A DNA stretch of 64,000 nt from Caulobacter sp. Its GTDB lineage: Bacteria > Pseudomonadota > Alphaproteobacteria > Caulobacterales > Caulobacteraceae. Below are positions 37,105 to 56,736 of this stretch, piece by piece (position 1 is the stretch's first letter; every line of letters begins with the position of its first letter). Below the pieces are notes generated by a model. That model saw only the letters and a program-made list of their open reading frames with translations, was not told the origin of the DNA and made no database searches. A program made the position numbers and the translations under genes. The stretch spans positions 97,861 through 161,860 of the forward strand of contig JAHBYC010000004.1 of assembly GCA_019636175.1 (NCBI GenBank), in the 5' to 3' direction.

Positions 37105-37770
37105 GTGGGGCCGATGGGCATCGCCAATCTGGCGGTAAGGGACTGGGCCGGCGTCGTCATCGACGCGGCCGCAGAGTCGGAGTCCGTGCGCGGAAGGGCG
37201 GTGGCCAGCGCCGCCGTTCCCATGGGCCTTCGCCGCAGAATGCCGAAATTCGCGCTTGCCGCCGTGCGCTGCGCCATGGGCGTGGCCAGCCCGGGATGTG
37301 AACTGGTCTTCGCCTCGCGCTTTGGCGATGTCACCACCGCTCTGGGTCTGTCGGAGGCCATCGTCGCCGCCGACCTGCTGTCGCCCGCGGCGTTCTCCGC
37401 CTGTGTGCACAACGCCGCGCCCGGCCTGGCCGCCCAGATACTGGGTGAGAAATCCAGCCACACCGCCGTCTCGGCCGGGGCGCGCAGCCTCGACGCCGGC
37501 CTGCTCGAGGCCTGGCTGCGGCTGACGGCCGGCGAGGCTTCCGAGGTGGTGGTGCTGTTCGCTGAACAGCCGATGCCGCAGATCTACGCCGAGTTCGACC
37601 ATGAGCCGGGCGTTCCCCTCGTCGCCCTGGCCTTGCGCGTCGTCCTCGCCGACCAGGGCGAGGCCGTCACCCTGGCCGCCGGCCGAACCGGCGCCCTCGC
37701 CCTGATGGATGAGCTCGACGCCGGAGCGACCCTGATCGCCGTTTCGCCGGACCTTCAGGCCGCGGCCTGA
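37105..37770 (+). CDS. Beta-ketoacyl synthase-like chain-length factor (ApeC-like)
   Basis: A 221-residue truncated ketosynthase-fold protein of the ketoacyl-synt_2 type found in aryl polyene and DAR clusters. The conserved FSACVHNAAPGLAAQILG block near residues 97-114 replaces the usual active-site region; it lacks the full KS Cys-His-His set, so it is best read as the non-catalytic partner (chain-length factor) of a ketosynthase, as ApeC is of ApeO. The GTG start has GGAG seven bases upstream (ATG 37114 is an alternative). It opens the plus-strand operon; its KS partners are on the opposite strand at 43694-47308. Confidence 0.85.
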   Translation: MGPMGIANLAVRDWAGVVIDAAAESESVRGRAVASAAVPMGLRRRMPKFALAAVRCAMGVASPGCELVFASRFGDVTTALGLSEAIVAADLLSPAAFSACVHNAAPGLAAQILGEKSSHTAVSAGARSLDAGLLEAWLRLTAGEASEVVVLFAEQPMPQIYAEFDHEPGVPLVALALRVVLADQGEAVTLAAGRTGALALMDELDAGATLIAVSPDLQAAA

Positions 37771-38549
37771 TGACGGGCCTGCTGCAGACCATCGATCGGG
37801 GCTGGCGACTGATCGCCACAGGCCTGTCCTTTGTCCTGTTCGGCCTGGGCGGACTGGCTCTGGCCCTGGCCATCTTCCCCTTCCTGAATGTGGGCTTCCA
37901 TGCCCGCGACCTGCGTCAGCGCATCGCCCAGCGGGTCGTGCAGCGGACCTGGCGTCTTTACATCCGGGTCATGCGGCTGCTCGGGGTGCTGACCTACGAA
38001 TGCAACGGCGAACCGCTGCTGAAGCGGGATCACGGGGTGATGGTCGTGGCCAACCATCCCTCCCTGCTCGACATCGTCTTCCTGATGGCCTTCATGCAGC
38101 GCACCAAATGCGTGGTGAAGGCCGGGGTCTGGAAGAACCCCTTCATGGCCGGGGTGGTCCGCGCGGCCGGCTACATCCCCAATCTCGGCGATCCCGAACG
38201 CCTGCTGGACGACTGCGCCGAAGCGCTGCGCGAAGGCAACAATGTGGTGATTTTTCCCGAAGGCTCCCGCACCGTTCCGGGCCAGCCGCGCAAGATGCAG
38301 CGCGGCTTCGCCTATGCCGCCATCAAGGCCGGCGCCCCGGTGCGGCTGGCTACAATCACGGTTTCACCGCCGACCCTGCTCAAGGGCGAGCCCTGGTATC
38401 GCATCCCCCCGCGCCGGCCGCACTGGGACATTCGCATCCACGAACGGATTGAAGTTTTTGACATGGCGGGGCAAGACCCGCTGCCTGTCGCCGCGCGCCA
38501 ACTGGTCTCGCGCGTCGATGAGATGATGGAAGAGAAGCTGCACGCATGA
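37770..38549 (+). CDS. Lysophospholipid acyltransferase (PlsC-like) of the APE-type cluster
   Basis: A 259-residue membrane-anchored acyltransferase with an N-terminal hydrophobic segment, the catalytic NHPSLLD (H-x4-D) near residue 94, and FPEGSRT (motif III) near 165. In aryl polyene clusters a similar enzyme is thought to transfer the polyene acyl chain onto a glycerolipid or glycan head. Its start overlaps the previous stop (TGATG), and the following ACP starts before it ends. Confidence 0.9.
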   Translation: MTGLLQTIDRGWRLIATGLSFVLFGLGGLALALAIFPFLNVGFHARDLRQRIAQRVVQRTWRLYIRVMRLLGVLTYECNGEPLLKRDHGVMVVANHPSLLDIVFLMAFMQRTKCVVKAGVWKNPFMAGVVRAAGYIPNLGDPERLLDDCAEALREGNNVVIFPEGSRTVPGQPRKMQRGFAYAAIKAGAPVRLATITVSPPTLLKGEPWYRIPPRRPHWDIRIHERIEVFDMAGQDPLPVAARQLVSRVDEMMEEKLHA

Positions 38550-38803
38550 CCGAGCTCGAAAACGAGATCAAGGCGATGATCATCGATGTCCTCAACCTCG
38601 AGGACGTCACGCCGGACGACATCGACCCGCAGGAGGATCTGTTCGGAGATTCCGGTCTGGCGCTGGATTCCATCGACGCCCTGGAGATTGGCGTCGGCGT
38701 TCAGAAGAAGTACGGCATCAAGATCAACGCCGAGGACAAGAGCACCCGGGCCCACTTCCAGTCCGTCCGCTCCCTCGCCGAATTCGTCGCCGCGCAGCGC
38801 TGA
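38546..38803 (+). CDS. Acyl carrier protein 1 (APE-type)
   Basis: An 85-residue ACP. The phosphopantetheine attachment Ser is in LALDSIDALEIG near residue 42. The start overlaps the acyltransferase stop (ATGA). It is one of two adjacent ACPs, matching the ApeE/ApeF pair of aryl polyene systems; in those, one ACP serves mainly starter loading and one elongation. Confidence 0.92.
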   Translation: MTELENEIKAMIIDVLNLEDVTPDDIDPQEDLFGDSGLALDSIDALEIGVGVQKKYGIKINAEDKSTRAHFQSVRSLAEFVAAQR

Positions 38804-38816
38804 CGGAGGAGAGAAC

Positions 38817-39065
38817 ATGGACAGACAAGCCGTCTACAAGGAAATTTCCGACTTTCTGGTCGACACCTTCGAGGTGCCGGAATCGGAGCTCACCCCCGAT
38901 GCCGATCTGGTCGAGAACCTCGGCCTCGACAGCATCGACGCGGTCGACCTGATGGTGAAGCTGCAGGAAATCACCGGCAAGAAGGTGACGCCCGAACAGT
39001 TCAAGTCGGTGCGCACGATCAATGACGTGCTCGACGTCGTGGACCAGCTCTCCGTCGATGGCTGA
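38817..39065 (+). CDS. Acyl carrier protein 2 (APE-type)
   Basis: An 82-residue ACP with the modified Ser in GLDSIDAVDLMVKL near residue 39, and the acidic recognition helix II expected for KS and KR docking. The start follows GGAGGAGA. It differs clearly from ACP1 (shared DSID core, little else), consistent with separate roles. Its 3' end overlaps the next start by eight bases. Confidence 0.92.
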   Translation: MDRQAVYKEISDFLVDTFEVPESELTPDADLVENLGLDSIDAVDLMVKLQEITGKKVTPEQFKSVRTINDVLDVVDQLSVDG

Positions 39066-39660
39066 TCCAACGCCGGCGGGTCCGCCGGCGCGGGGCAAGA
39101 TCAATCCGTCGGCCATCGCCCTGGCGGTGATCACCGTCCTCTATCCCTTTATCGCCCTGATCGCGGTGCGGACGGTCGGACCGGCGATCGTGGTCGGCGC
39201 CCTCTGCGTGCTGTTGCTGGTCCGGACCTTCTTCGGCGTCGGCAGGGGCATCCCCCTGGGCGTGGCCCTGGCCCCTCTGGCGGTCGCCCTCTTGATGGGG
39301 CTGATGATGCTGTGGGACGCCCACCGCGCCGTACGGTTCTATCCGGTGTTCATGAGCGGCGCGATGCTCGCCGCCTTCGCCGCCAGTCTGGTCAAGGGCC
39401 CCAGCATGATCGAACGGCTGGCGCGCGTCGCCGAGCCGGACATGCCGGCGTCGGGCGTCATCTATACCCGCAAGGTGACCATGGTCTGGTGCCTGTTCCT
39501 GGGCCTGAACGGCCTCGTCGCCCTGTGGACCGCCCTCTATGCCAGCCTTGAGGTCTGGACCGCCTACAACGGCTTTATCTCCTATGTCCTGATGGGCGCG
39601 CTGCTGGGCGGCGAGTTCCTGGTTCGCCGGATCATCAGGGGGCGGGAAGGCCAGGCATGA
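39058..39660 (+). CDS. Polytopic membrane protein of the APE-type cluster (COG4648-like)
   Basis: A 200-residue protein with about six membrane helices, including IALAVITVLYPFIALIAVRTV, ALALMGLMMLW-like and FISYVLMGALLGGEFLVR. The layout and place between the ACPs and the AMP ligase match the ApeG-like membrane protein of aryl polyene clusters, of unknown role, perhaps a scaffold for the synthase at the membrane. The ATG lies inside the previous gene and the end overlaps the next by four bases. Confidence 0.85.
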   Translation: MADPTPAGPPARGKINPSAIALAVITVLYPFIALIAVRTVGPAIVVGALCVLLLVRTFFGVGRGIPLGVALAPLAVALLMGLMMLWDAHRAVRFYPVFMSGAMLAAFAASLVKGPSMIERLARVAEPDMPASGVIYTRKVTMVWCLFLGLNGLVALWTALYASLEVWTAYNGFISYVLMGALLGGEFLVRRIIRGREGQA

Positions 39661-41300
39661 GCGGCCTCGTCTCCGCGCTGCTGACGGCGCCGGCCTCCCG
39701 CGTCGTGTTTACCGGTCAGGCGCCGGTCACCGCCGGCCAGATTCGCGCCACCGCCGCCGACCTCGCGCCGAGGCTGGCCGGCCGCGAGCCCCTCTTTCTC
39801 CACACCGTCTCGGCCGCCCTGTTTACGGCGGCCCTGCTGGCGGCGGCCGTCGCCCGGCGCCGGCTGGCCCTGCCCGCCCATGTCCAGGGCGGTTATCTCG
39901 CGGAAGTCGGCGGGACGGATGCGGTCCTGCTGGACGACACCGCCCTGTCCCTGTCGTCCGCGACCGACGCGCCCCCGGGGAGCCTGAAGGACGCGGCCGA
40001 GGACGTCGATCTGATCTTCTTCACCTCTGGTTCGACCGGCGCCCCCAAGCGGATCGAGCGACGGCTCTCCCAGCTGGAGACCGAGAGCCGGGCGCTGCAG
40101 GCGACCTTCGGCGGTGAAACCGGGCCGGTTCAGGCCACCGTTTCGCACCAGCATATCTATGGCCTGATCTACCGCATCGTCTGGCCGGTGATGGCCGGCC
40201 GCCCCAGCGCCGATATCGCCGCCGAATACTGGGAGCAGCTGGAAGGGCGGCTGGGCCAGGCGGTCACGCTGATTTCCAGTCCCGCGCATCTGACCCGCCT
40301 GCCGCCGGTCATGGACCTGTCGTCCCAGGCGCCGGGTCTGGTGTTCTCTTCCGGCCAGCTCCTGCCGACCCCGGCGGCGCTGGCCTGCGCAGCCGTGTTC
40401 GGCCGGCCGGTGACCGAGGTGCTGGGCAGCACGGAGACCGGCGGCGTCGCCTGGCGGCGCCAGACCGGCCCCGACGAGCCCTGGACGCCTTTCTCCGTCG
40501 TGACCGTCGGACAGGACGCGGCCGGCGGTCTGACCGTCATCACGCCCTATCTCGACGGGGTCGACCCCTTTCCGATGGGGGATCGGGTCGAGCCGCTCCA
40601 CGACGGTCGTTTTCGCCTTCTGGGTCGCGCCGACCGGATGGAAAAGATCGACGGCAAACGTGTCTCCCTGACCCGGGTCGAGGAGGCCCTGGCGGCGCTG
40701 CCCCTGATCGCCGAGGCCGCGGCCCTGACCCTGCCGGACCGGCAGGGCTCCCTCGGCGCCGTGGTCGAGCTGACGCCGACCGGTCAGGCGACTCTGCGGG
40801 AGAAGGGCGCTTTCCGCTTCGGGCGCCTTCTTCGCGCCGCTCTGGCTGATAGACTGGAGCCCATTGAACGACCCAAGCACTGGCGATTTGTCGCCCGCAT
40901 GCCGGTCGACGCCCAGGGGAAACGCCGCATCAGCGATCTTCGCGCCAGGTTTGCCGCCGACCCGCCTCGCGTGCCGCCCTATGAGGTGGTCTCGCGCGAG
41001 GGCGATACCGCGCGCCTGAAAGTCTCCCTGCCGGCGGACCTGATCTATTTTCAGGGCCACTTCCCGGAAGAGGCCATTCTGCCGGGCATCTCCCAGGTGC
41101 ATATGGCGGTGCTTATCGGCGAGCAGACCCTGGATTTCGTCCCGGCCAGCGCGGAGCTCAATCGGGTCAAGTTCAAGGATATCGTCCGCCCCGGCGAGGT
41201 GCTCGACCTGACCCTGACCGCCGACCGTGAACGCGGCCGCCTCACCTTCCAGTGGCTGCGCGCCAACGGCAACGAGGCCTCGGCGGGCGTGATCGGCTAG
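39657..41300 (+). CDS. AMP-dependent ligase fused to hotdog dehydratase (ApeH-ApeI-like fusion)
   Basis: A 547-residue two-domain protein. Residues about 1-440 are an acyl-adenylating enzyme: the P-loop-like FFTSGSTGAPKR near 122, STETGGVAWR near 260 and GRADRMEKIDGKRV near 323 match the ANL family. Residues about 450-547 are a hotdog domain with LIYFQGHFPEEAILPGISQVH, the FabZ/ApeI-like dehydratase block with its catalytic His in QGHFP. Thus starter activation and a dehydration step are joined in one chain, whereas aryl polyene systems usually encode them as ApeH and ApeI. It ends the plus operon 16 bases from the convergent minus operon. Confidence 0.88.
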   Translation: MSGLVSALLTAPASRVVFTGQAPVTAGQIRATAADLAPRLAGREPLFLHTVSAALFTAALLAAAVARRRLALPAHVQGGYLAEVGGTDAVLLDDTALSLSSATDAPPGSLKDAAEDVDLIFFTSGSTGAPKRIERRLSQLETESRALQATFGGETGPVQATVSHQHIYGLIYRIVWPVMAGRPSADIAAEYWEQLEGRLGQAVTLISSPAHLTRLPPVMDLSSQAPGLVFSSGQLLPTPAALACAAVFGRPVTEVLGSTETGGVAWRRQTGPDEPWTPFSVVTVGQDAAGGLTVITPYLDGVDPFPMGDRVEPLHDGRFRLLGRADRMEKIDGKRVSLTRVEEALAALPLIAEAAALTLPDRQGSLGAVVELTPTGQATLREKGAFRFGRLLRAALADRLEPIERPKHWRFVARMPVDAQGKRRISDLRARFAADPPRVPPYEVVSREGDTARLKVSLPADLIYFQGHFPEEAILPGISQVHMAVLIGEQTLDFVPASAELNRVKFKDIVRPGEVLDLTLTADRERGRLTFQWLRANGNEASAGVIG

Positions 41301-41316
41301 GATCGGACTGGCGGCC

Positions 41317-42510
41317 TCAGGTCAGCTCCTCGGAGGAATAGCCCAGAATTTCGCGGGCGATGATCAGCCGCTGGATCTGGCCGGTGCCTTCGTAGATGTC
41401 GCTGATCCGGCCATCCCGCATGTATTTCTCGACCAGATGGTCGTGGCTGACTGACATCCCGCCCAGCACCTCCATGGCGCCTTGGGTCACCGTGCGACAG
41501 ACGTCGCCGCCCTTGGCCTTGCAGACCGAGCTTTCCAGGTTGTTGGGCCGGCGCTTGTCGCTCAGCCAGGCGGCGTGCAGCACCGTCAGGGCGGCCGCCT
41601 CGGTATCGGCCTCCAGTTCGATCAGCTTCTGCTGAGTGGCCGAGCGCTGCGGGAAGCTCTGGCTCCAGTCGACGCTGACCCCCTCTTCGGCCAGGGCGTC
41701 GATGGCGAAATTCAACGCGCCCCGCGCCTTGGCGACGCCGCCGGAGGCCACCGCCGGCCGGGTCATGTTGAAGGTCTTCATCACTCCGCGATAGCTGGCC
41801 GATCCGCCTCCCTTGGGCACGGTCTCGTCGCCGCCCAGCAGGGCGTCGCGGGGAATACGGCAGTCGCGGAAGGCGTAGGCTGCGGTGTCGCTGGCGCGAA
41901 TCCCCAGTTTCTTTTCCTGCCGCACCAGCTCGAAGCCGGGCGCGTCCTTCAGCACCAGGAAGGACTTGATGCCGGCCCGTCCGGCCGACTTGTCGATGGT
42001 CGCCCAGACGATGGCGCCATCGGCCTTGACCCCGTCGGTGACGAAGATCTTGTCGCCGTTCAGCACCCACTCCTCGCCGTCCAGCCGGGCGGTGGTCTGG
42101 ATGGCCTTGGTGTCGGAGCCGACGCCCGGCTCGGTGATCGACATGGCCAGGAACAGATCGCCCCACTTGGCCTTCTGTTCGGGCGTGCCGGCCGATTGCA
42201 GGGCGGCGTTGCCCAGGCCGCTGGCGCGTCCCGACGGCATGGCCAGGCCAAGGCCCCGCACCACGCCGCTGGCCGAGCCCCGCGCGATGCTGACGGCCAT
42301 CATGAAGGTCATCATCGGGGTGTCGTCGGGCTGGCGCTGGCCAAACAGGGGGAACACCTCCTCGAACCCGCGCTCGCCCTCCAGCCGCGCCGGCGGCGTC
42401 TCGTGCTCGTGGTCCTCGTAGTAGCGGGTGTGGGCGGTGGTCGAATTGCCGACCTCGACCACCTTGTCGAGGATTTGCTGGTCGATGTCGGAGAAGCGGA
42501 AGTCAGCCAT
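41317..42510 (-). CDS. Acyl-CoA dehydrogenase with intact catalytic Glu
   Basis: A 397-residue FAD-dependent acyl-CoA dehydrogenase. Substrate/FAD loops MSITEPGVGSDTKA near residue 122 and VLNGDKIFVT near 147 are intact, and the C-terminal SDIYEGTGQIQRL near 372 carries the usual Glu base. The start ATG 42510 follows TAGGAGAGA; the upstream in-frame region overlaps the other dehydrogenase. It is the last gene of the long minus operon and lies 11 bases behind its partner. It could introduce an alpha-beta double bond in a CoA- or ACP-bound chain. Confidence 0.9.
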   Translation of the reverse strand: MADFRFSDIDQQILDKVVEVGNSTTAHTRYYEDHEHETPPARLEGERGFEEVFPLFGQRQPDDTPMMTFMMAVSIARGSASGVVRGLGLAMPSGRASGLGNAALQSAGTPEQKAKWGDLFLAMSITEPGVGSDTKAIQTTARLDGEEWVLNGDKIFVTDGVKADGAIVWATIDKSAGRAGIKSFLVLKDAPGFELVRQEKKLGIRASDTAAYAFRDCRIPRDALLGGDETVPKGGGSASYRGVMKTFNMTRPAVASGGVAKARGALNFAIDALAEEGVSVDWSQSFPQRSATQQKLIELEADTEAAALTVLHAAWLSDKRRPNNLESSVCKAKGGDVCRTVTQGAMEVLGGMSVSHDHLVEKYMRDGRISDIYEGTGQIQRLIIAREILGYSSEELT

Positions 42511-42521
42511 GTCTGTCTCTC

Positions 42522-43634
42522 CTAGACCGAGACCGGACCGTCGAGGACGGTCAGGGTGCGGGCGTTGCGCAGCCACATTTCCAGCGGCAGGTCGCGAATG
42601 AAGCCGTGGCCGCCGAAGATCTGCAGGGCGTCATCGGCGATCTTGATCGATTTGCGGCGGACGTAGTCCTGGGCCAGCACGCTGGCCTTGGGGGCGCCCG
42701 GGTCGTTGTGCTCCAGCAGGCTGGCGGCCTTCCAGACCATCCAGCGCATCGCCTCGCACTCGATGTGCATGTCGGCCAGCATGAAGGCGATGGACTGTTT
42801 CTTGGCGATCGGCTCGCCGAACGCGACCCGCTCCTTGGCGTAGGGAATGGCGTAGTCGGTGGCCTGCCGCGACAGGCCGACGGCCATGGCGCAGGCGCCG
42901 ATCCGGGCCTGGTTGACCAGCCGTTCCGCGTCGATCCCCGCGTCGCCGCCCAGCCGGGCCGAGCCGGGAAGCTCCACCTTGTCGAGGGTCACCCGGGCCT
43001 GGGGCAGGGGCTTCAGTCCCATGCTGCCGCTCTCGGCCTGGACGGTCAGACCCTCCGTATCGCGGGGCACGATGAAGGCGGAGACCGCCGCCAGGCCGGC
43101 CGCGCCGTCCTCGGCGGCCAGCACCAGGAAGTGCCCGGCCCGGTCGCCCAGGGGAACCATGCGCTTTTCGCCGTTCAGCACCCAACCGTTGCCCTTGCGG
43201 GCGGCGGTGGTGCGCTGGGCCTCGGCGGCGAAGCCGAACTGGCCCTCCTGCAGCGCCAGGCTGGCGGCTGCCGGCGTCTCGCCGGCAAAGCGGGGCAGAT
43301 GTTCGGCCTTCTGCTCCTCGGTTCCGAAGTCGATCAGGGCGGACACGAACTGGCCCGGGGCCATGATCGCCGTCCCCTGGCTGGCGCAGCCGCCGCCCAG
43401 CGCTTCCAGGATCACGGCGTTGGTCAGGCAGGACCGCTCGCCGCCGCCGCCGCCGTATTCTTCCGGGATCGCCGCCGCGATCAGCCCGAAGTCCCAGCCC
43501 TGGCGGATGATGTCGTCGGGAACCGTTCCCGCCTCGTCGATGGCCCGCGCCCCGGGCGCCAGCACCTCGGCGGCGAAAGCCTGCAGGCTCTCGCGGATCA
43601 TGGTCTGCTCGTCGTTGAGCTCAAAATCGATCAT
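42522..43634 (-). CDS. Acyl-CoA dehydrogenase lacking the usual catalytic Glu motif
   Basis: A 370-residue ACAD-fold protein: IPEEYGGGGGERSCLTNAVILEALGG near residues 56-80, WVLNGEKRMVPLGD near 149, and IFGGHGFIRDLPLEMWLRNAR near 339. Where other members read IYEGT the sequence reads VLDGPVSV and stops, so the common Glu base is absent (Asp in the same place). It may be the inactive or structural half of a heteromer with the neighbouring dehydrogenase, or use a Glu elsewhere. The ATG is 59 bases behind the ketosynthase gene. Confidence 0.88.
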   Translation of the reverse strand: MIDFELNDEQTMIRESLQAFAAEVLAPGARAIDEAGTVPDDIIRQGWDFGLIAAAIPEEYGGGGGERSCLTNAVILEALGGGCASQGTAIMAPGQFVSALIDFGTEEQKAEHLPRFAGETPAAASLALQEGQFGFAAEAQRTTAARKGNGWVLNGEKRMVPLGDRAGHFLVLAAEDGAAGLAAVSAFIVPRDTEGLTVQAESGSMGLKPLPQARVTLDKVELPGSARLGGDAGIDAERLVNQARIGACAMAVGLSRQATDYAIPYAKERVAFGEPIAKKQSIAFMLADMHIECEAMRWMVWKAASLLEHNDPGAPKASVLAQDYVRRKSIKIADDALQIFGGHGFIRDLPLEMWLRNARTLTVLDGPVSV

Positions 43635-44911: not shown

Positions 44912-45651
44912 TACACCAATCCCCCGTTCACTCCGATTACCTGCCGGGTGATGTAACCAGCTTCCCGGGAAAATAGAAATGCGATCAGTCCGCTGACTTC
45001 ATCGACCTCGCCGATCCGGCCCATCGGGATGGCCTGGATGACCTCGGGGCGGACCTCGCCGATCATGCCGGTATCGATCAGGCCCGGAGCCACCGCGTTG
45101 ACGCAGATCTTGCGGCTGGCCAGCTCGACCGCCAGGGCCTTCACCGCCCCGATGATGCCGGCCTTGGCGGCGCTGTAGTTGACCTGACCCCGGTTGCCCA
45201 TCACCCCGGACACGCTCGACAGGGCGATGATCCGGCCGCCGTCGCGCCGGCGGATCATCGGCATCACCAGCGGATGAACCACATTGTAGAAGCCGTCGAG
45301 ATTGGTCCGCAGCACCGCGTCCCAGTCCTCGCCGGACACGGCGGGAAAGGCGTTGTCGCGGGTGATGCCGGCGCTGAGCAGCACGCCCCACCAGGGGCCC
45401 TTGTCAGCCAGTCGCGCCTCCAGGGCGGCGGTGACGGCGGCGCGGTCGGACACATCGAAGCTGATCAGATCGGCTTGGGAGCCGGCGGCGCGAATGGCCT
45501 CCGCGGTCTCCTCGGCCCCGGCCCGGTCGCCGCCGTAGTGAACGGTGACCGGATGGCCGGCCTGGCCGATACGGATGGCGCTGGCCCGGCCGATCCCCTT
45601 GCTGGCCCCGGTGACCAGCACCGGGCGTTTGGCGTTCAGCTCGCGGGTCAC
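44911..45651 (-). CDS. 3-oxoacyl-ACP reductase FabG-like (ApeQ-like)
   Basis: A 246-residue SDR ketoreductase: TGASKGIG near residue 14, a Ser in ALSSVSGVMG near 142, and YSAAKAGI near 155. The NVVHPLVMPMIRR segment is typical of this KR type, which reduces 3-ketoacyl-ACP during polyene chain growth. The GTG start overlaps the upstream dehydratase stop (GTGA); a longer in-frame extension lies inside that gene and is not conserved-looking. Confidence 0.92.
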   Translation of the reverse strand: MTRELNAKRPVLVTGASKGIGRASAIRIGQAGHPVTVHYGGDRAGAEETAEAIRAAGSQADLISFDVSDRAAVTAALEARLADKGPWWGVLLSAGITRDNAFPAVSGEDWDAVLRTNLDGFYNVVHPLVMPMIRRRDGGRIIALSSVSGVMGNRGQVNYSAAKAGIIGAVKALAVELASRKICVNAVAPGLIDTGMIGEVRPEVIQAIPMGRIGEVDEVSGLIAFLFSREAGYITRQVIGVNGGLV

Positions 45652-49136: not shown

Positions 49137-51378
49137 GTCGTCTTCCAAACCACGCGGCTACAAAGGAAAATCCGTAGGAGATGGCGAGGCCGGCCGCAAC
49201 GGCTATGCCAAAGGCTCGCACAGGATAGGTCGAACTGAGGCTCAGAAGCCCCATCGAAAGGATCGCCGTCATGGCGGTGATCAGGATCGGCAGGCCGGCC
49301 AGCGGCGAGCGTTGGCCCAGGGCCGCTTCATAGCGCAGGATCGAATAGTCGGCCCCGGTGCCGACCACCACGAAGGCCCCCATCATCGAGAAGAAGCTCA
49401 AGGGCGTTCCGAGCACCGAGGCGGCGATGATCCCGCCGATGACCCCCAGCCCCGGAGCGACCAGAATGCCCAGCGCCGTGGCCCGCCGATAGATGACCAG
49501 CAGCATGACGCCCACCGCGACAAAGGCGGCCAGCGCGGCCATGGCCGCCAGTCGGCGATAGTCGGCGAAGGCGCCGCTGTAGGCGTTGGCGGGATTGACA
49601 TAGGTCGCATCCGTCATCCCCGCCGTGGCCGCGATCACCGCCGGAGCAGAGGCCTCGGGCACCGGCGCGATGAGGTAGTGGCGGTCGCCGCTGGTTCCCG
49701 CCAGGCCGGCGATCCAGCCGGGCAGGGGGACCCCTTCAGGACGGGCGAAGGGCTGGAAGTCGGCTTCCGCCAGCCCCAGCAGTTCGGCGCGCTCGGCCAG
49801 GTGCGGACCAATCAGTTCGTCCCGCACCCGCGCCTCGGTCAGGGCCCGGACATCGGCCGGCGGATCGAAACGGCCGGGGGCCAGAATTCCGGCGCGGGCC
49901 GGCTCGGGCAGGGCGGCCAGAACGGAGGCCTCGCGGGCCTTGGCGGCCTGCGGCGTCGGGCCCCAGCTGAGCAGGAAGTTGGGCGAGAAACCGACGCCGG
50001 ATGCTTCCCGCACCGCCGCCTCCTCGGCCACCAGCACCGGCGAACGGGGCTGGAACCTGCGCACGTCGTCCAGGGTCGAGAAGTGGCCCAGGGTGAAGAC
50101 GCCGCCGGCCACGAACAGCACCCCGACCACGGCCAGGGCCGGCCAGGTCCAGCGCAGGCGCTCGCGGCGGGCCTCGAGCCCGGCCCACAGCGCCGCCAGT
50201 CGTTCCTTGCGGCCTTCCGCCACTCCGCGGTCGAACAGCGGAACCAGGGTGAAGGCGCAGGCCCAGGCCGAGATCAGTCCGCCGACGGCGAACACCGCCA
50301 TCTGGCTGAAGATGGGCACCCCGAACAGGGCCAGACAGGAAAAGCCCATCGCCGAGGTGACCATGCAGACCGTCACCGGCCGGAAGATCATCGCCCGCCG
50401 CGCCGCCTGATCGCCCCATCGGGTCAGGGGGCCTGTCGAGAGGTAATAGATGGCGTAGTCGGCGGTGACCCCGACAAAGGCCGAGCCGAACACGAAGGTC
50501 AGCATGTGGACGGTGGGAAACACCGCCAGCACCGCCGCCAGCGATCCCAGATAGCCGGCCGCCACCACCAGAAGGGTGATCGGCAGGGCGCGCGGCCGGC
50601 GGAACACCACCATCAACAGCAGGATGATCCCCAGGGTCGAGGCGACGCCGACGGTGGAGACGTCCTTCTTGGCGTGGCGCGCGCCGTCGGCGGCGTGGAA
50701 GGCCGCCCCGGCCCGGGCCAGGGTCACCCCCTGGTCGCGGCGCGATCGCGTCCAGTCATCGACGATGTCGGTAAAGGTCTTCTGGGTGTCGAGCCGGAAG
50801 GCCGAGCCGGTCAGGCGGCCGCTGATCAGGATGCCGCCATCGCCCGCCGTCGCCCCGCCGAAGCCGCTGGCCGGCAGCAGGCAGCCGCTCAGACGCAGGG
50901 TCAGCAGGAAGGGATCGCGCTGCAGCATCTCGCCGCTCAGCGGCGCCACCGGCGAGAAGATCTGCACCAGGGACGACTGCACCACCCCCTCGGCGGCGGC
51001 GGCGTCGAACCCGGCGGGGGCCGGCTCGCATCCCAGCTGGTTGCGGTTGGCGAACAGCCAGCGGGCGGTTTCCTCGCCGTCGACGGCCGCGTCGACGAAG
51101 ACGCCGCTGTCCTTGAGGCGCTTGGTCAGATCGTCGGCGGCCTCCCGCGCCAGGTCCGGGTTCGGCGCCGACACCAGCATCGCCACCCGGCTCGAGGCGG
51201 CGACTCCGGCCTGGACCATGGCCTCGCGCACCGGCGGGCGCAGCGCCTGGGCGGGAAGCAGGCTCTGGATATCGGTATCCAGCGCCCCGCCGGACGTCAG
51301 GCGCAGGACGATATAGGCGGCGGCGATAACGCAACCGACCAGATACAGACCCAGAAGTCCCAGACGCCCCCCGCTCAC
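49120..51378 (-). CDS. MMPL/RND-family exporter of the APE-type cluster
   Basis: A 752-residue protein with one N-terminal helix, a periplasmic domain of about 200 residues, five clustered helices (about 235-390), a second periplasmic domain and five more helices at the C-terminus: the MMPL layout. AFVGVTADYAIYYLSTG near 295 and VGTGADYSILRYE near 680 are the twin GxxxDY motifs that carry proton-relay Asp residues in RND pumps. It probably exports the finished lipid or polyene to LolA-like partners. The GTG start follows AGGGG, six bases after the LolA-like stop. Confidence 0.9.
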   Translation of the reverse strand: MSGGRLGLLGLYLVGCVIAAAYIVLRLTSGGALDTDIQSLLPAQALRPPVREAMVQAGVAASSRVAMLVSAPNPDLAREAADDLTKRLKDSGVFVDAAVDGEETARWLFANRNQLGCEPAPAGFDAAAAEGVVQSSLVQIFSPVAPLSGEMLQRDPFLLTLRLSGCLLPASGFGGATAGDGGILISGRLTGSAFRLDTQKTFTDIVDDWTRSRRDQGVTLARAGAAFHAADGARHAKKDVSTVGVASTLGIILLLMVVFRRPRALPITLLVVAAGYLGSLAAVLAVFPTVHMLTFVFGSAFVGVTADYAIYYLSTGPLTRWGDQAARRAMIFRPVTVCMVTSAMGFSCLALFGVPIFSQMAVFAVGGLISAWACAFTLVPLFDRGVAEGRKERLAALWAGLEARRERLRWTWPALAVVGVLFVAGGVFTLGHFSTLDDVRRFQPRSPVLVAEEAAVREASGVGFSPNFLLSWGPTPQAAKAREASVLAALPEPARAGILAPGRFDPPADVRALTEARVRDELIGPHLAERAELLGLAEADFQPFARPEGVPLPGWIAGLAGTSGDRHYLIAPVPEASAPAVIAATAGMTDATYVNPANAYSGAFADYRRLAAMAALAAFVAVGVMLLVIYRRATALGILVAPGLGVIGGIIAASVLGTPLSFFSMMGAFVVVGTGADYSILRYEAALGQRSPLAGLPILITAMTAILSMGLLSLSSTYPVRAFGIAVAAGLAISYGFSFVAAWFGRRHVREA

Positions 51379-51384
51379 CCCTGG

Positions 51385-51972
51385 CTATCCCCCGCGTACG
51401 GCCGACATCTCGATGGCGATGCTGTCGCCATTGGCCTGGCTGATATTGACCGCCTCGGCGCGGTTGCAGCCGGTGATCTCGATGGTCGACAGAAAGCGGC
51501 CGAGGCTTGCGTCCTTGGGTTTGAGCGCCAGCTTCCACGGCGCTCCGGGGGCCGTCTGGCCGCCGCTGATCAGATAGTAGCGACGCAGGGCGCCGTAGTC
51601 GCCGGTGAGGATCTCGAACAGGCCCGAGCTGCGCAGGAAGGGATCGGCCGAGGCCGGCCCCACAGTCTGGGCCTTTCCGCCCTGAACCGACTGGGTGATG
51701 CGGCCGGGCGTGATGGTCAGGCGCACATCGACCGGCTTGATCACCCGCCAGTCAACACGGCCCGGCGTCACCTCGGCGATCCCGGTCGAGATCAGCGGAG
51801 TCTTCATGTTGGCCAGCCGTCGGGTCTGTTTGAAATCGAACTGACCGGTTTGGGCGCGCAGGGCGAAGGGATCGGCGCACTTGGCCAGGGCTGCGCCGGG
51901 CAGGCTCAGTCCGATGAGGCCGGCGGCAGCCAGGGCGAGAGCTTTTCGCGCAGGATCGGCGGGGATTCCCAA
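51385..51972 (-). CDS. LolA-like outer-membrane lipoprotein carrier protein
   Basis: About 195 residues, with a signal peptide (ARKALALAAAGLIGLSLPGAALA). The mature part has FDFKQTRRLANMKTPLISTG near residue 50 and a beta-sheet core, matching LolA-like proteins of aryl polyene clusters, which carry hydrophobic cargo across the periplasm. The start is uncertain: no ATG gives a sensible N-terminus, and the TTG at 51972, with GGAG eight bases upstream, overlaps the thioesterase gene by 67 bases. Confidence 0.85.
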   Translation of the reverse strand: MGIPADPARKALALAAAGLIGLSLPGAALAKCADPFALRAQTGQFDFKQTRRLANMKTPLISTGIAEVTPGRVDWRVIKPVDVRLTITPGRITQSVQGGKAQTVGPASADPFLRSSGLFEILTGDYGALRRYYLISGGQTAPGAPWKLALKPKDASLGRFLSTIEITGCNRAEAVNISQANGDSIAIEMSAVRGG

Positions 51973-52352
51973 AGCATCGTCTCCGTCTTGATATCGACCG
52001 CCACCTGCACGCTTGAGCATCGGGTCAGTCGTTGTCCCGTCTCCGGGTCGCGAAATTCATAGTCTATTTTGAGGCGGTTCTCCCATTCGACGATCCCCGC
52101 ATGCACCTCGAAGGTCTGGTGCAGGCGCAGGGGCCGGGCGTAGCGGAACCGCATGTCTATGATCGGCCAGCCGTAGCCGGAAGCGATCATCTCGTCATAG
52201 CCGTAGTTGATCTTGTCCAGGATGGCGACGCGACCCAGCTCCATGAAGCGGGGATAGTTGCCGTGCCAGACGATGTTCATCGGATCCAGGTCGTAGAAGT
52301 GCGGCCGGGTCTCCACCATGGCCGAAACAATCGCCTTCATCGGTCGCGGCAT
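51906..52352 (-). CDS. Acyl-CoA/ACP thioesterase, 4-hydroxybenzoyl-CoA type
   Basis: A 148-residue hotdog thioesterase: FYDLDPMNIVWHGNYPRFME near residues 20-39 is the DxD-x-x-x-V-x-x-x-x-Y family signature with the catalytic Asp. It could release or proof-read the polyene chain, as ApeK does in aryl polyene systems. The ATG overlaps the stop of the ammonia-lyase gene (TGATG), and the end overlaps the LolA-like gene. Confidence 0.9.
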   Translation of the reverse strand: MPRPMKAIVSAMVETRPHFYDLDPMNIVWHGNYPRFMELGRVAILDKINYGYDEMIASGYGWPIIDMRFRYARPLRLHQTFEVHAGIVEWENRLKIDYEFRDPETGQRLTRCSSVQVAVDIKTETMLWESPPILREKLSPWLPPASSD

Positions 52353-53929
52353 CACTCGGCCCCGAGCCAGTCCAGGCCTCTGCCGTCGGCCAGGGCGCCG
52401 CAGAGGGCCCTCAGCGCGGCGTCCAGAGGCGCGTCCTCGTCGATGAACGGGGCCAGCGCGCCGGCGGCCGCCAGGAAGCCGTCCACCCGCGGTCCAAGCT
52501 CCGCCTCCTTCAGCCCGCCGTCACGCAGGCGCAGGCGCACGGCCTGGACACAGGCGATCACATGGGCGGCGGCGACCTGTTCGGTCAGCTCCACCACCCG
52601 CAAGGCGTCCCGCGCGGCAATGGTGCCCATCGAGACCTTGTCCTGGTTGTGACATTCGGTGGAGCGGGAGAAGACGCTGGCCGGCATGGTCAGCTTCAGG
52701 GCCTCGGCCGTCCAGGCCGAGACGCCGATCTGCACCGCCTTGAGGCCATGGTTGATCGGCGCCCGCTCGCCGGTCGCGCCTGACAGGTTGGACGGCAGGC
52801 CGTTGTTGTAGCGGGTGTCGACCAGCAGGGCGAGCTGGCGGTCCATCAGGTCGGCCAGGTTGGCCACCAGGTTCTTCAGGCTGTCCATGACAAAGCAGAT
52901 GTGCCCGCCATAGAAGTGACCGCCGTGCAGGGTCCGGCCGTCTTCCGGGTCGAACAGCGGGTTGTCGTTGGCGCTGTTGATCTCGGTCTCGATGATCTGG
53001 CGGAAGCTGGCCAGCATGTCTTCCAGCACCCCGATGACATGGGGCGCGCAGCGGATCGAATAACGGTCCTGCAGGCGGGTGGGGGTGTGCAGCCTGGCGA
53101 ATTCGGCCAGGTCCGCGCGAATACGGGCGCCGACGCGCATCTGCCCGGGATGCGGCTTGGCGCTCATCAGCCGCTCGTCGAAGTGGGCTGGATTGCCCAG
53201 CAGGGCCAGGCTGGCCATGGCGGTCAGGCGGCTCGACAGCCGCGACAGCTGCTCGGCCCGATGGAAGGCCAGGGCGGCCAGGCCGGTCATCACCGCGGTG
53301 CCGTTCATCACCGCCAGCCCTTCCTTGGGCTTGAGGGTGATGGGCTTGAGGCCGGCCCTGGCGAAGGCGTCCGCGGACCGCATCACCTGGCCCTGGAACA
53401 GCACGTCGCGCTCCCCGGCCAGGGCGCCGGCGATATAGGACAGGGGGGTCAGGTCGCCGCTGGCGCCGACCGAGCCTTCAGCCGGGATCAGCGGCAGGAT
53501 GTCCAGCCGCAGCATGTCTCCCAGCAGTCGGACCAGATCCAGGCTGACCCCGGACCAGCCCCGCATCAGGGTCACCAGCCGCACGGCCATCACCGCCCGC
53601 GTCTCATGGGGCTCCAGGATCCGGCCCAGGCCGCAGCCGTGGAAACGGGTCAGATGCAGCGGCAGCTCGGCGACCAGTCCGGTGGGCACGCCGCGGGTGA
53701 CGCTGTCGCCATAGCCGGTGGTGACGCCATAGATGACGCCTTCGCGGGCCAGGGTGGCCTCGACATGACCCGCCGACCGGGAAATGGCCGCCAGAGCCGC
53801 CTGGTCGTCGGTCAGCCGCAGGGCGACGCGCCCTGTCGACAGGGCCCACACGTCCTCGATCGTCAGGTCGGCCCCGCCAATGGCGAGCCCCTGGCCGTAC
53901 CGGCCGCTTGTGTCGTTCACGCCGTCCAT
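52352..53929 (-). CDS. Aromatic amino acid ammonia-lyase (HAL/PAL/TAL family)
   Basis: A 525-residue lyase. The MIO-forming Ala-Ser-Gly is in SVGASGDLTPLSY near residue 150, VTTGYGDSV near 60 supplies the catalytic Tyr, and NHGLKAVQIG, SANDNP and TECHNQD blocks follow. The substrate-selectivity dyad in TRFHGCG near residue 95 reads Phe-His, unlike His-Leu of tyrosine lyases, Phe-Leu of phenylalanine lyases or Ser-His of histidine lyases. In this cluster it most likely makes cinnamate or 4-coumarate as aryl starter. ATG 53929 follows AAGGGG. Confidence 0.92.
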   Translation of the reverse strand: MDGVNDTSGRYGQGLAIGGADLTIEDVWALSTGRVALRLTDDQAALAAISRSAGHVEATLAREGVIYGVTTGYGDSVTRGVPTGLVAELPLHLTRFHGCGLGRILEPHETRAVMAVRLVTLMRGWSGVSLDLVRLLGDMLRLDILPLIPAEGSVGASGDLTPLSYIAGALAGERDVLFQGQVMRSADAFARAGLKPITLKPKEGLAVMNGTAVMTGLAALAFHRAEQLSRLSSRLTAMASLALLGNPAHFDERLMSAKPHPGQMRVGARIRADLAEFARLHTPTRLQDRYSIRCAPHVIGVLEDMLASFRQIIETEINSANDNPLFDPEDGRTLHGGHFYGGHICFVMDSLKNLVANLADLMDRQLALLVDTRYNNGLPSNLSGATGERAPINHGLKAVQIGVSAWTAEALKLTMPASVFSRSTECHNQDKVSMGTIAARDALRVVELTEQVAAAHVIACVQAVRLRLRDGGLKEAELGPRVDGFLAAAGALAPFIDEDAPLDAALRALCGALADGRGLDWLGAE

Positions 53930-53938
53930 CCCCACCCC

Positions 53939-54862
53939 TTACAGACGCCAGAAATCATAAAAGTTGAACCATTGGAACGGGTTGGCCAGCGCCTGCTGCT
54001 CAAGTTCGGCGGCAAACCGGCTGACGGAGGCTTTTACGGCGGCTTCCCGCGTCTTGCGCGGAAAATCCAGCCGCTCACTGAACTTTCGGAACTGCACCTT
54101 GTAGCGGCCCTGCCGGCGCACGGCGTAGAGGCTGTAGATCGGACATTTCAGCGCGGACGCCAGGACGAAGGGTCCGATCGGGAAGGGCGCGTCCTCGCCC
54201 AGGAACGGAACCCAGACCGAGGGGCTCTTGCCGCCGGGCGCGGGCCTGTCCGCCAGGATCACCGCCCAGTCGCCGTTTTCCAACGCCGAGGACAGGATCA
54301 TCGCCGCTCCGAGGCCAAGGTCGCTGACCTCGATGATCCGCACGGCGGAGCGGGGCGCCATCCTCGCCATCAGGTCGGCGAAACGGGCCGCATTGGCGCT
54401 GTGGGCCAGGACGCTGACGCCGCGGCGGTCTCCCAGGGTGGCGATGGCGCGCATCACCTCCGGAACGCCCAGATGGGCCGAGACCACCACCGCGCCGCGC
54501 GGATCGGCCCGGGCGGCGGCGAAATCGGGGTGGTCCAGGCCGTCGACCCGCTCCGGCCCGATATCGCCCAGCCAGGCGGAAAACCTGTCGAGAGCCCCGC
54601 CGGCGAAGGCCAGGGCGTGCTTCAGGCCCGCCAGGTGGTTGACCTCGCCAATCTCGGCGCCATGCGCCTTGGCCCGGCGCAGCCACGCCAGGGAGGCGCG
54701 CCGCTGCCGGCCGCCGGTGACGTAGAAATAGACCACCAGCGGCGCGATCAGGGCCATGGACACGGTGCGGCCCAGCAGGCGGTAGACCATGGCCACGATC
54801 CACAGTCCCGCGAACGCTCCCCGTTCCCCTGTCGACGCCCAGGTCGCCGCCATACGCTTCAC
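53939..54862 (-). CDS. Predicted lipid acyltransferase (COG4261/LpxL-like)
   Basis: A 307-residue membrane-anchored protein with one hydrophobic segment near residues 30-55. VVVSAHLGVPEVMRA near residue 124 and AVILADRPAPGGKS near 198 resemble LpxL-like acyltransferases (His-x4-Glu in place of Asp), and the NPFQWFNFYDFWRL end is characteristic of the predicted acyltransferases in aryl polyene clusters. It is probably the first gene of the minus operon, with the ammonia-lyase nine bases behind, and may attach the aryl polyene to its lipid or sugar carrier. Confidence 0.9.
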   Translation of the reverse strand: MKRMAATWASTGERGAFAGLWIVAMVYRLLGRTVSMALIAPLVVYFYVTGGRQRRASLAWLRRAKAHGAEIGEVNHLAGLKHALAFAGGALDRFSAWLGDIGPERVDGLDHPDFAAARADPRGAVVVSAHLGVPEVMRAIATLGDRRGVSVLAHSANAARFADLMARMAPRSAVRIIEVSDLGLGAAMILSSALENGDWAVILADRPAPGGKSPSVWVPFLGEDAPFPIGPFVLASALKCPIYSLYAVRRQGRYKVQFRKFSERLDFPRKTREAAVKASVSRFAAELEQQALANPFQWFNFYDFWRL

Positions 54863-54914
54863 TTGCCCCCGTGGTCCTGTCCCACAATGGATATCCAGAA
54901 CCGCGAAATTCCAT

Positions 54915-54943: not shown

Positions 54944-55061
54944 GGATGATCTACCCCGTCGCCCGGCGCCGCGTCCACGTTGAGTCGTCGTTGTCGGCGT
55001 GTATTGTCGTCAAGTGCGGTTCGCCGGACGCAGACCAGTTCAAGCCTGTCGGGATCAGATC

Positions 55062-55508
55062 ATGAAGACCTTCGCCGCCCTCCTCCTCCCCCTCGCCATC
55101 GGCCTCGCCGCCGCGCCGACCGTCCAGGCCGCCGGCCGCGACGACGTGATCAACTTCCCGGTCGCCGATGTGCTGAACAATCCCGAATACGCCGCCAAGC
55201 TGCCGGCCGGGGTGAAATACTACTTCGGCGACTCCCGCGCCGCGGTCAGCCGCAAGCTCGGCGAGACCCGCACCAACAAGAAGACAAACGGCTTCAACAA
55301 GACCGACAAGGCCGCCTGCGAATGGGCCATGCTCAGCGCCCTGATCGCGATCGGCGAGGACGCCAAGGGTCGCGGCGGCAACGCCGTGGTCGGCATCAAG
55401 TCCAACTACAAGGGCAACCTGACCTCCAGCAACGACACCTACGCCTGCGGCGCGGGCAACCTGATGGTCGGCGTCGCCCTGGTCGGCGAAGTGGCGGTGG
55501 TTCGCTAA
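55062..55508 (+). CDS. Small secreted heavy-metal-binding/YbjQ-like protein
   Basis: A 148-residue protein with signal peptide (ALLLPLAIGLAAAPTVQA). The mature part has LPAGVKYYFGDSRAAVSRKLGETRTNKKTNGFNKTDKAACEWAMLSALIAI, then GGNAVVGIKS, the pattern of a family often mis-annotated as 'excinuclease ABC subunit A' and related to YbjQ-like (heavy-metal-binding) domains. Function unknown. It sits between the lyase-side operon and the glycosyltransferase. Confidence 0.75.
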   Translation: MKTFAALLLPLAIGLAAAPTVQAAGRDDVINFPVADVLNNPEYAAKLPAGVKYYFGDSRAAVSRKLGETRTNKKTNGFNKTDKAACEWAMLSALIAIGEDAKGRGGNAVVGIKSNYKGNLTSSNDTYACGAGNLMVGVALVGEVAVVR

Positions 55509-55532
55509 CGCCGACAACGCTAGATCACCGCC

Positions 55533-56282
55533 ATGAGTTTTCGTCCTTGCGCGGTGATTCCCGCCTTCAACCACTACCGCCGGCTGGGGCCGGTGCTCGC
55601 CGGTCTGCGGGCGCTGGACCTGCCGGTGTTCATCATTGATGACGGCAATGTCGAGCCGACCCGGTCGGGGCTGGCGGCCTTCCATGCGCCGGCGTCCGGG
55701 GTCACCGTCATTCGCCGGCCCAGCAACGGCGGCAAGGGCGCGGCGGTCATGGACGGCTTTCGCCACGCCGCCGACGCCGGCTTCACCCATGCCCTGCAGA
55801 TCGACGCCGACGGCCAGCATCAGCCCGAGCAGGCGGCGAAGTTCATTGCCCTGGGCCAGGCCAATCCGACCGCGGTGATCGCCGGGGCGGCGGTCTATGA
55901 CGACAGCGTGCCCAGGGCGCGCAAGATCGGCCGTTACGTCACCCACTTCTGGGTCTGGGTGGAGACCGCTTCCTTCGACATCCAGGACAGCCTCTGCGGC
56001 TTTCGCCTCTATCCGCTGGCGTCGACCCTGAAGATGCTGCGGTCCGAGCATATCGGGACCCGGATGCAGTTCGACACCGAGATCCTGGTGCAGCTGCACT
56101 GGCGCCGCGTGCCGGTGATCAGCCTGCCGGTCCAGGTGGTCTATCCGCCGGACAACACCTCGAACTTCGCCATGCTGGCCGACAATGTCCGCATCAGCCT
56201 GATGCATCTGGGACTGGTGTTGCAGACCCCGTTCCGCCTGCCGCTCAAGCTGCTGCGCAAGGCCCCGTCCACACCAGGCTGA
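55533..56282 (+). CDS. Family 2 glycosyltransferase (ApeJ-like)
   Basis: A 249-residue GT2 enzyme. FIIDDGN near residue 33, SNGGKGAAVMDGF near 66 and QIDADGQH (DxD motif) near 88 are the nucleotide-sugar binding features, as in dolichyl-phosphate-mannose-type synthases. The CGFRLYP segment near 155 and a hydrophobic C-terminal end complete the pattern. Similar genes occur in aryl polyene clusters and could glycosylate the lipid or polyene. Its 3' end overlaps the convergent PPTase gene by 38 bases. Confidence 0.88.
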   Translation: MSFRPCAVIPAFNHYRRLGPVLAGLRALDLPVFIIDDGNVEPTRSGLAAFHAPASGVTVIRRPSNGGKGAAVMDGFRHAADAGFTHALQIDADGQHQPEQAAKFIALGQANPTAVIAGAAVYDDSVPRARKIGRYVTHFWVWVETASFDIQDSLCGFRLYPLASTLKMLRSEHIGTRMQFDTEILVQLHWRRVPVISLPVQVVYPPDNTSNFAMLADNVRISLMHLGLVLQTPFRLPLKLLRKAPSTPG

Positions 56283-56736
56283 GCACGAAGCCGGGCTCGG
56301 GAAGGGTCTGCAGCAGCCAGGCCTCGCCAACCGCCACCGGCTCTGTCGAGCGGTTGGCCCCGGCGATGCGGATCAGGTCGGGGGAGGGGTCGGCGCCGAA
56401 GGCCTTGAACCAGGCCTCCCCGAAGGTCCAGCCGCGAAAGAACTGTTCGGGGGTCAGGTCCGGGGCCGGGACGCCCAGAAAATGTTCCGCGATCTCGGCC
56501 ATCCGCCGGCCCGGATCGATCCATTCGATATCGACGCCCAGCCGCGTGACCGGCGGCCGGGCCGTGGCCGCGGCGACGAGGCCCCGGCCGTGACTGCGGC
56601 TGAACAGCGTCGCGGCGGGGTCCAGTTCGGCCTGCAGGGCCCGGGCGGCGGCGCTTTCCATCGCCTTGGCCGGCCGCTGGCCAGGCGTGACGCCGGCCAG
56701 TCGCCGCGTAGCGAAGCAGAGCCCGTCAGGCGTCAC
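56245..56736 (-). CDS. 4'-phosphopantetheinyl transferase
   Basis: About 163 residues from the GTG at 56736. LGVDIEWID near residue 73 and FFRGWTFGEAWFKAFG near 105 are the Mg/CoA-binding signature of Sfp-type phosphopantetheinyl transferases (G-V/I-D-I-E and W-x-x-K-E/A-x-x-x-K). The N-terminal half seems short for the family, and the W-T-F-G-E-A-W form is unusual, so the start may be further upstream. It is the natural activator of the two ACPs. It lies 28 bases after secA on the same strand. Confidence 0.75.
   Translation of the reverse strand: MTPDGLCFATRRLAGVTPGQRPAKAMESAAARALQAELDPAATLFSRSHGRGLVAAATARPPVTRLGVDIEWIDPGRRMAEIAEHFLGVPAPDLTPEQFFRGWTFGEAWFKAFGADPSPDLIRIAGANRSTEPVAVGEAWLLQTLPEPGFVLSLVWTGPCAAA

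Follow-up and report, generated by a model that had tools for sequence, protein, structure and literature searches.

Aryl polyenes (APEs) are yellow outer-membrane pigments. The window analyzed here, 64,000 nucleotides of contig C34 (bases 97861-161860) from a Caulobacter assembly of 3.17 Mb, 91 contigs and 87% completeness, holds at positions 37105-56736 an apparently complete and ordinary gene set for the synthesis and export of an APE. Taken as a whole, it is very probable that these genes form an APE island of the type that carries an ammonia-lyase and a flavin enzyme, that in a single Caulobacter clade the island has secA on one side and a gene for an RPE65-type oxygenase on the other, that two acyl-CoA dehydrogenase genes situated between its two arms are bystanders, and that the predicted biosynthetic route is primed with a 4-coumaroyl unit. 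Gene identity, gene order, one gene fusion, one gene split, the distribution of the genes among genomes and the site of insertion are matters of observation.

Gene content and arrangement

The reference set was the 18 Ape proteins of Escherichia coli CFT073 (c1186-c1204), named as in an excerpt of PMC8253772. Sixteen of them, ApeC through ApeR, find their best partner in 37105-56736. Because of these partners, and because the best Pfam E-values for most genes of the cluster run from 1e-156 (the ammonia-lyase) to 5e-9 (the first acyl carrier protein), the gene set is far beyond chance. A preliminary description of this DNA, made from its letters alone, had proposed an APE/xanthomonadin-type cluster; the Pfam and NCBIfam profiles and the Ape partners bear this out gene by gene, as does the conserved gene order.

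The locus contains an ApeO ketosynthase (KS) with a half-size ApeC chain-length factor (CLF), a second, FabB/F-like KS (ApeR), a ketoreductase, two hotdog dehydratases (ApeQ, ApeP and a fused ApeI) and two stand-alone acyl carrier proteins (ACPs), ApeE and ApeF. It also contains the transport set ApeG, ApeL, ApeM and ApeN, the latter three weakly conserved (21-25% identity), and the ApeD and ApeJ transferases. The AMP ligase ApeH is recognized by homology, and its specificity for aryl acids is predicted. ApeH and ApeI share one open frame in which the dehydratase is the C-terminal part of the ligase, with a Pfam score of 28.5 bits that just equals the cut-off. The two dehydratases named in the preliminary description are thus both present, the second not as a separate gene. 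ApeJ corresponds to two separate genes, one on each strand; its glycosyltransferase 2 (GT2) half, also named earlier, exists, though on the plus strand and outside the minus operon. The gene list given then was incomplete as well, having passed over the small exported protein at the right end.

The plus arm (37105-41300) and the minus arm (54862-41317) have open frames and converge tail to tail with 16 bases (41301-41316) between them, exactly as first described. By visual inspection, genes for a sensor kinase-response regulator and a KaiC-like ATPase stand between the arms at two other loci, L006:16726-19900 (genome G019) and L016:14205-17655 (Caulobacter sp. SLTY).

No partner of the ApeB methyltransferase was found in the cluster, and the best tblastn hit in the whole window has an E-value of 0.32, so the earlier statement that a methyltransferase is missing holds for an ApeB-like enzyme. 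The ApeA lipoprotein has no match below E 1 among the proteins of the window and none below 0.069 in the window as a whole. ApeB and ApeA, which together would mark an E. coli-type APE cluster, were therefore not found within the window.

Table 1. Features of the APE locus and its flanks. Percentages are identities to the E. coli CFT073 protein named.
Feature	Position	Strand	Evidence
DUF2855 and RPE65-type oxygenase, left flank, outside island	34516..36992	+	Profiles, distribution, gap to secA
ApeC-like CLF, half-size KS	37105..37770	+	PF13723 E 1.4e-36; ApeC 27%, E 5.7e-8
ApeD-like lysophospholipid acyltransferase (LPLAT)	37770..38549	+	PF01553 E 2.3e-18; ApeD 43%
ApeE-like ACP	38546..38803	+	PF00550 E 4.8e-9; ApeE 59%
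ApeF-like ACP	38817..39065	+	PF00550 E 5e-13; ApeF 51%
ApeG-like (COG4648) membrane protein	39055..39660	+	No Pfam match; ApeG 48% over 111 aa, E 1.4e-35
Fused ApeH (AMP ligase) and ApeI (dehydratase)	39657..41300	+	PF00501, PF13193, PF22818; ApeH 33%, E 1.2e-41; ApeI 30%, E 4e-6
Acyl-CoA dehydrogenase 1 (ACAD1), keeps YEGT glutamate; probable bystander	41317..42516	-	PF00441/PF02770; alignment; pair distribution
Acyl-CoA dehydrogenase 2 (ACAD2), Asp at YEGT glutamate, short C-terminus; probable bystander	42522..43634	-	Alignment; pair distribution
ApeR-like KS (KS1)	43694..44911	-	NF006587 over cut-off; ApeR 52%
ApeQ-like ketoreductase (FabG2)	44911..45666	-	TIGR01831 over cut-off; ApeQ 61%
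ApeP-like dehydratase	45648..46100	-	PF22817 E 1.3e-12; ApeP 31%, E 6.4e-17
ApeO-like KS (KS2)	46121..47308	-	NF006618 over cut-off; ApeO 47%
ApeN-like DUF3261 lipoprotein	47305..47901	-	PF11659 E 2.4e-20; ApeN 25%, E 5.5e-8
Flavin-dependent halogenase/monooxygenase-like enzyme	47898..49148	-	PF04820 Trp_halogenase E 7.5e-23; PF01494 FAD_binding_3 E 9.6e-19
ApeM-like MMPL/RND exporter	49120..51378	-	PF03176 E 3.3e-10; ApeM 24%, E 1.6e-35
ApeL-like LolA carrier	51385..52020	-	LolA profile E 0.015-0.083, below cut-off; ApeL 21%, E 1.6e-9
ApeK-like thioesterase	51906..52355	-	PF13279 E 2.2e-14; ApeK 45%
Aromatic amino acid ammonia-lyase, His-Leu dyad, predicted tyrosine-type	52352..53935	-	PF00221 E 1.3e-156; alignment to plant phenylalanine ammonia-lyases
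Lipid A-type acyltransferase, C-terminal half of ApeJ	53939..54862	-	PF03279 E 1.8e-8; ApeJ 37%
Small exported protein linked to APE clusters	55062..55508	+	Homologs in 26/71 loci, plus G252 and G014
GT2, N-terminal half of ApeJ	55533..56282	+	PF00535 E 1.3e-16; ApeJ 47%
Probable Sfp-type phosphopantetheinyl transferase (PPTase)	56245..56736	-	PF01648 (ACPS) E 1e-4, just under cut-off (scanned as 56245-56742); start codons
secA, right flank of island	56765..59533	-	Profiles, gap to RPE65

Distribution and insertion site

Judged by KS1, which is 97% identical, the closest named relative is Caulobacter sp. RI_161; this narrows the initial assignment of a Caulobacterales-like genome, itself right, to Caulobacter. 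Comparisons were made with a panel of 75 Caulobacter genomes and with 71 loci (69 named); genomes and loci are cited by G and L numbers. In each genome only the best candidates were scored (at most 26 for the dehydrogenase, 24 for the flavin gene and 7 in the family survey), and absences are to that extent uncertain. KS1 (E <= 1e-90) is present in six of the 75 genomes, namely G000 (the genome of the window), G014, G019, G075, G077 and G079, and the flavin gene is present in the same six. In the wider family the flavin gene (E <= 1e-80) was found in at least five of 249 sampled Caulobacteraceae genomes: G252, which belongs to another genus, and four Caulobacter. The cluster of G252 has the same two convergent arms, which suggests that the split layout is either older than the genus Caulobacter or has arisen twice. 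Eight alphaproteobacterial KS1 sequences group together with a support of 100 (SH-aLRT) in a quick tree of 69 rows; the tree takes in only loci with more than 330 aligned residues and joins long branches, so it was used for this grouping alone. Away from the cluster, G019 (L011) and G014 (L012) each show one more KS match next to an ACP match, which may mark a second polyketide locus.

In all six cluster-bearing genomes a DUF2855 gene and the RPE65-type oxygenase gene stand just upstream of ApeC. A close RPE65 homolog (at least 53% identical) was counted in 31 Caulobacter genomes. RPE65 and secA share a contig in 19 cluster-free genomes, where the gap between them is below 1 kb in 10 and below 5 kb in 18, with DUF2855 sometimes in between; they share one in four cluster-bearing genomes, in all of which the gap is 19.8-26.6 kb. 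Seven of the remaining genomes have RPE65 and secA on different contigs and one has no secA hit. It follows from these gaps that the island, GT2 and PPTase included, sits between RPE65 and secA. Both of its ends could be placed in five of the six genomes (in G014 from two contigs), and in G075 the RPE65 end only. Six of 75 Caulobacter species carry a full APE island at one defined place in the chromosome, and relatives have that place empty, a situation well suited to clean deletion tests of the role of the pigment in a free-living bacterium.

In a secA tree of 30 rows, four cluster-bearing genomes form one clade with support values of 99/97; G014 and G075 are outside the tree. G085 and G017 are sister to this clade, and in G085 the site is empty (169 bases). 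Insertion of the cluster after the split from G085/G017 and its precise loss there are both possible. The secA gene of G014 (G014:C195:3783-6635) has about 29 extra in-frame residues (951 columns for 922), and G021, G036 and G068 show the same two-piece secA match with long open frames. Matches to "PPT" at secA in L144, L151 and L155 were discarded as secA itself, which the long PPTase open reading frame (ORF) overlaps.

Ammonia-lyase and flavin enzyme

The ammonia-lyase has the ASG triad of the methylidene-imidazolone (MIO) group and a His-Leu pair that aligns with Phe-Leu of plant phenylalanine ammonia-lyases. The selectivity dyad rule, which we take to assign His-Leu to tyrosine, suggests tyrosine as its substrate. 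NCBIfam models for TAL and HAL both match the protein below their cut-offs. Among 34 homologs the triad is ASG in every case; the dyad is HL in 25, QL in four, NL in two and something else in three. Such a lyase is not new to APE clusters, since the consulted part of PMC5932025 lists a histidine ammonia-lyase among the APE genes of Flavobacteriia.

The flavin enzyme was missed in the preliminary description, and it contradicts the statement there that a dedicated hydroxylase is lacking. Among its relatives of solved structure the best match is 3nix, a "flavoprotein/dehydrogenase" (E 2e-97); halogenases, PltA and CmlS among them, rank next. Lys76 and WxWxIP, presumably the motifs of flavin-dependent halogenases, are present in the window enzyme and in all 33 homologs (E <= 1e-20) from the 71 loci; the window enzyme is a putative halogenase or monooxygenase. 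Of the 71 loci, 29 have both the lyase and the flavin enzyme, five have just the lyase and four just the flavin enzyme. Halogenation of the ring would be a known kind of tailoring, since excerpts of PMC8253772 report methylated or halogenated APE head groups in known cases.

The acyl-CoA dehydrogenase pair

ACAD1 retains the glutamate of the YEGT motif, which we assume to be the catalytic residue; ACAD2 has VLDG in its place and an early stop. These features suggest that the two proteins may work as a heteromer. ACAD2 (E <= 1e-60) was found in at least 18 of the 75 Caulobacter genomes, comprising the six cluster-bearing ones and 12 of the 69 that are cluster-free, and ACAD1 adjoins it in all 18 (in G017 ACAD1 is cut by a contig end, and in G011 ACAD2 is split over two contigs). 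The pair forms a unit of about 2.3 kb, and ACAD2 is 79-95% identical among complete copies. When 10 copies from outside the cluster were compared, long common flanks were seen only within the close sets G028/G035/G086 and G019/G014/G075; some other copies share shorter flank pieces, and the neighbors are largely different.

The preliminary description had proposed that the two dehydrogenases alter the product. Membership in the pathway, with a heteromer that would oxidize or reduce the carrier-bound chain and so yield a product unlike known APEs, is improbable. It is suggested by the position of the genes, which trail KS1 by 59 bases on the same strand in the window and occupy the same gap in G079 (L013) and G077 (L016), by the presence of ACAD2 somewhere in every cluster-bearing genome, and by prolyl-carrier-protein dehydrogenases among the relatives of both proteins. 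The distribution speaks against it. The pair is present in the 12 cluster-free genomes noted above; it lies between the arms in only three of the six cluster-bearing genomes (G000, G079 and G077), being about 50 kb from secA and outside the cluster in G019 and on contigs other than that of the cluster in G014 and G075; and the two-arm cluster of G252 lacks it. L013 and L016 are the only ones among 69 named loci to include it, many loci being cut by contig ends. The spacing is not constant either: KS1 and the pair are separated in L013 by about 1.1 kb with an unrelated 209-aa ORF (L013:11310-11936, minus strand, no Pfam match) and in L016 by what appears by eye to be a LysE-like gene. On the secA tree the cluster requires one change and the pair three, and the pair spans the wider clade, as would be expected if these genomes had the pair before the cluster. 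A role of the pair as tailoring enzymes was rejected on the distribution among Caulobacter genomes and in G252. Since the pair occurs in cluster-free genomes with largely different neighbors and is missing from the G252 cluster, it is most likely a bystander; a secondary role in the cluster is conceivable. Odd genes in a cluster from a single genome can be bystanders of this sort, and comparison across the genus tells them apart.

The RPE65-type oxygenase

The nearest solved relatives of the RPE65-type enzyme are 7qr6, the carotenoid oxygenase 5j53 (NOV1), 6xm6 and a lignostilbene dioxygenase. In the alignment it has Met and Glu at NOV1 Tyr101 and Lys134, presumably the phenol-binding positions, and on the strength of these replacements it is probably not a classic lignostilbene dioxygenase. 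There is little chance that this enzyme and DUF2855 are cluster members acting in cleavage or turnover of the polyene. Carotenoid and lignostilbene oxygenases cleave conjugated C=C bonds, and the RPE65-DUF2855 pair lies on the same strand as ApeC, 112 bases before it, and keeps this neighborhood wherever the cluster occurs in Caulobacter; however, the oxygenase gene lies near secA in cluster-free genomes (under 5 kb in 18 of 19), did not turn up in the regions compared from G252, L017 and L018, and encodes a protein without the two NOV1 residues. The link to the cluster looks positional, and the pair was rejected as a part of it.

Small exported protein

The small exported protein has no Pfam family above the cut-off. 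In Acinetobacter and Pseudomonas its homolog is encoded directly behind the ApeR gene, a place at which an excerpt of PMC8358021 mentions a protein of unknown function. Three of the four Pseudoalteromonas records listed annotate it as "excinuclease ABC subunit A"; a literature search linking aryl polyenes with excinuclease found nothing related. The structure model has a mean confidence (pLDDT) of 86.8 and points to a weak DUF74 match (best E 2.4e-3, TM scores 0.41/0.60), with none at 0.001. G014 has two matches to the protein close together (L182).

Both this protein and the flavin enzyme are conserved across clusters of the ammonia-lyase type and have roles that can be tested. We tentatively suggest that in the lyase-type clusters of Caulobacteraceae, Hyphomonadaceae, Acinetobacter, Pseudomonas and Pseudoalteromonas the conserved flavin enzyme may give ring-halogenated (or ring-hydroxylated) 4-coumaroyl-primed polyenes and, jointly, that the conserved exported protein, called "excinuclease" in some records, may be an unrecognized part of their delivery to the envelope.

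Predicted pathway and product

All of the enzyme reactions, the product and the export route set out here are predicted, and the roles of ApeR, ApeO-ApeC, ApeK, ApeD/J and ApeL/M/N follow excerpts of PMC8253772 and PMC8358021. The ammonia-lyase would convert tyrosine to 4-coumarate, and the ligase part of the ApeH-ApeI fusion would load the aryl acid onto the ApeE-like carrier protein. ApeR and ApeO-ApeC would add malonyl units, each of which the ketoreductase and the two dehydratases would convert into a double bond. The flavin enzyme may halogenate or hydroxylate the ring, and the PPTase would charge the carrier proteins. The thioesterase, releasing the chain, and the acyl- and glycosyltransferases would pass it onto a lipid, and the MMPL, LolA-like and DUF3261 proteins would carry the product to the outer membrane. 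The acyl-CoA dehydrogenases would be bystanders that landed in the gap between the arms. The product is probably a 4-coumaroyl-primed, flavin-tailored aryl polyene. The suggestion that it may differ from known APEs loses the dehydrogenases as its argument; a difference from the APE of E. coli may still arise from the ammonia-lyase and the flavin enzyme, both of them common in other APE clusters, and from the lack of ApeB.

Several observations weigh against a complete lyase-type APE island with bystander dehydrogenases. The LolA carrier and the PPTase, both named in the preliminary description, score below the Pfam cut-offs, the former being recognized by its match to ApeL and the latter weakly by ACPS. 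The lyase dyad is not HL in nine of the 34 homologs. The choice of starter is uncertain, since E. coli ApeH is said in an excerpt of PMC8253772 to use 4-hydroxybenzoate and the ligase here is just 33% identical to it. The dehydrogenase pair lies within the locus, oriented like the minus arm, in the window, G079 and G077, and none of the six cluster-bearing genomes is without it. The tree was built on secA, a gene that adjoins the island, and includes four of the six genomes with the cluster. A further, partial match to secA on contig C56 of G014 may mean that the bin of this genome is mixed.

It is scarcely credible that the product is a flexirubin-like compound in which the polyene is esterified with a dialkylresorcinol. 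FlxA and FlxB, two flexirubin models, do match the lyase and the ketoreductase below cut-off, and polyene-dialkylresorcinol hybrids exist outside Bacteroidetes according to an excerpt of PMC3949708, but no darA/darB-like gene turned up in a scan limited to proteins of the cluster and its immediate neighborhood.

Comparison with known systems

A literature search on aryl polyenes and Caulobacter returned no title about a Caulobacter cluster. The locus is an ordinary and well-conserved APE island. As an alphaproteobacterial example it has a defined site that relatives have empty, and it draws attention to a halogenase-like enzyme that is conserved and to an exported protein that had been overlooked.

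Compared with the APE cluster of E. coli CFT073, the window has partners for all of ApeC-ApeR, and the blocks C-I and J-R keep their gene order. It differs in being without ApeA and ApeB, in having the ammonia-lyase, the flavin enzyme and the PPTase as extra genes, in the fusion of H with I and the split of J, and in the convergence of the two blocks.

The cluster of G252 has the same genes in the same order in its two arms, with GT2, PPTase and the small exported protein together at one end. It differs in that GT2 and PPTase are at the ApeC end, in the absence of the acyl-CoA dehydrogenases, and in that neither RPE65 nor secA was found in its 39.8 kb. The Hyphomonadaceae loci L017 (Ponticaulis) and L018 have the same genes, including the ammonia-lyase, the flavin enzyme and a full-length match to the ligase-dehydratase. 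Their core genes all run in one direction, unlike those of the window, a MipA/OmpV gene is present (tested in L018), and their stretches show no dehydrogenases or RPE65.

Pseudoalteromonas sp. THAF3 carries the minus-arm genes in the same order on pTHAF3_a (FIU82_RS16640-16705, NZ_CP045419.1), annotated gene by gene: GT2, acyltransferase, aromatic ammonia-lyase, thioesterase, hypothetical proteins of LolA and exporter size, FAD oxidoreductase, DUF3261, KS, hotdog protein, ketoreductase and KS, then the small exported protein. Unlike the window, it has a MipA/OmpV gene after the second KS and GT2 in line with the rest; the stretch compared did not include the ApeC-ApeI part.

Xanthomonadin and flexirubin clusters, as described in excerpts of PMC3691225, PMC3949708 and PMC5932025, share the type II polyene machinery; the CLF of Lysobacter is half-size, several xanthomonadin-like clusters carry halogenase genes, and the Flavobacterium cluster has a histidine ammonia-lyase gene. 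According to the consulted part of PMC3691225, one related cluster has a CLF-like partner that is indispensable. Xanthomonas and Lysobacter differ from the window in their XanB2-type supply of hydroxybenzoate, and flexirubin producers differ in their dialkylresorcinol genes.

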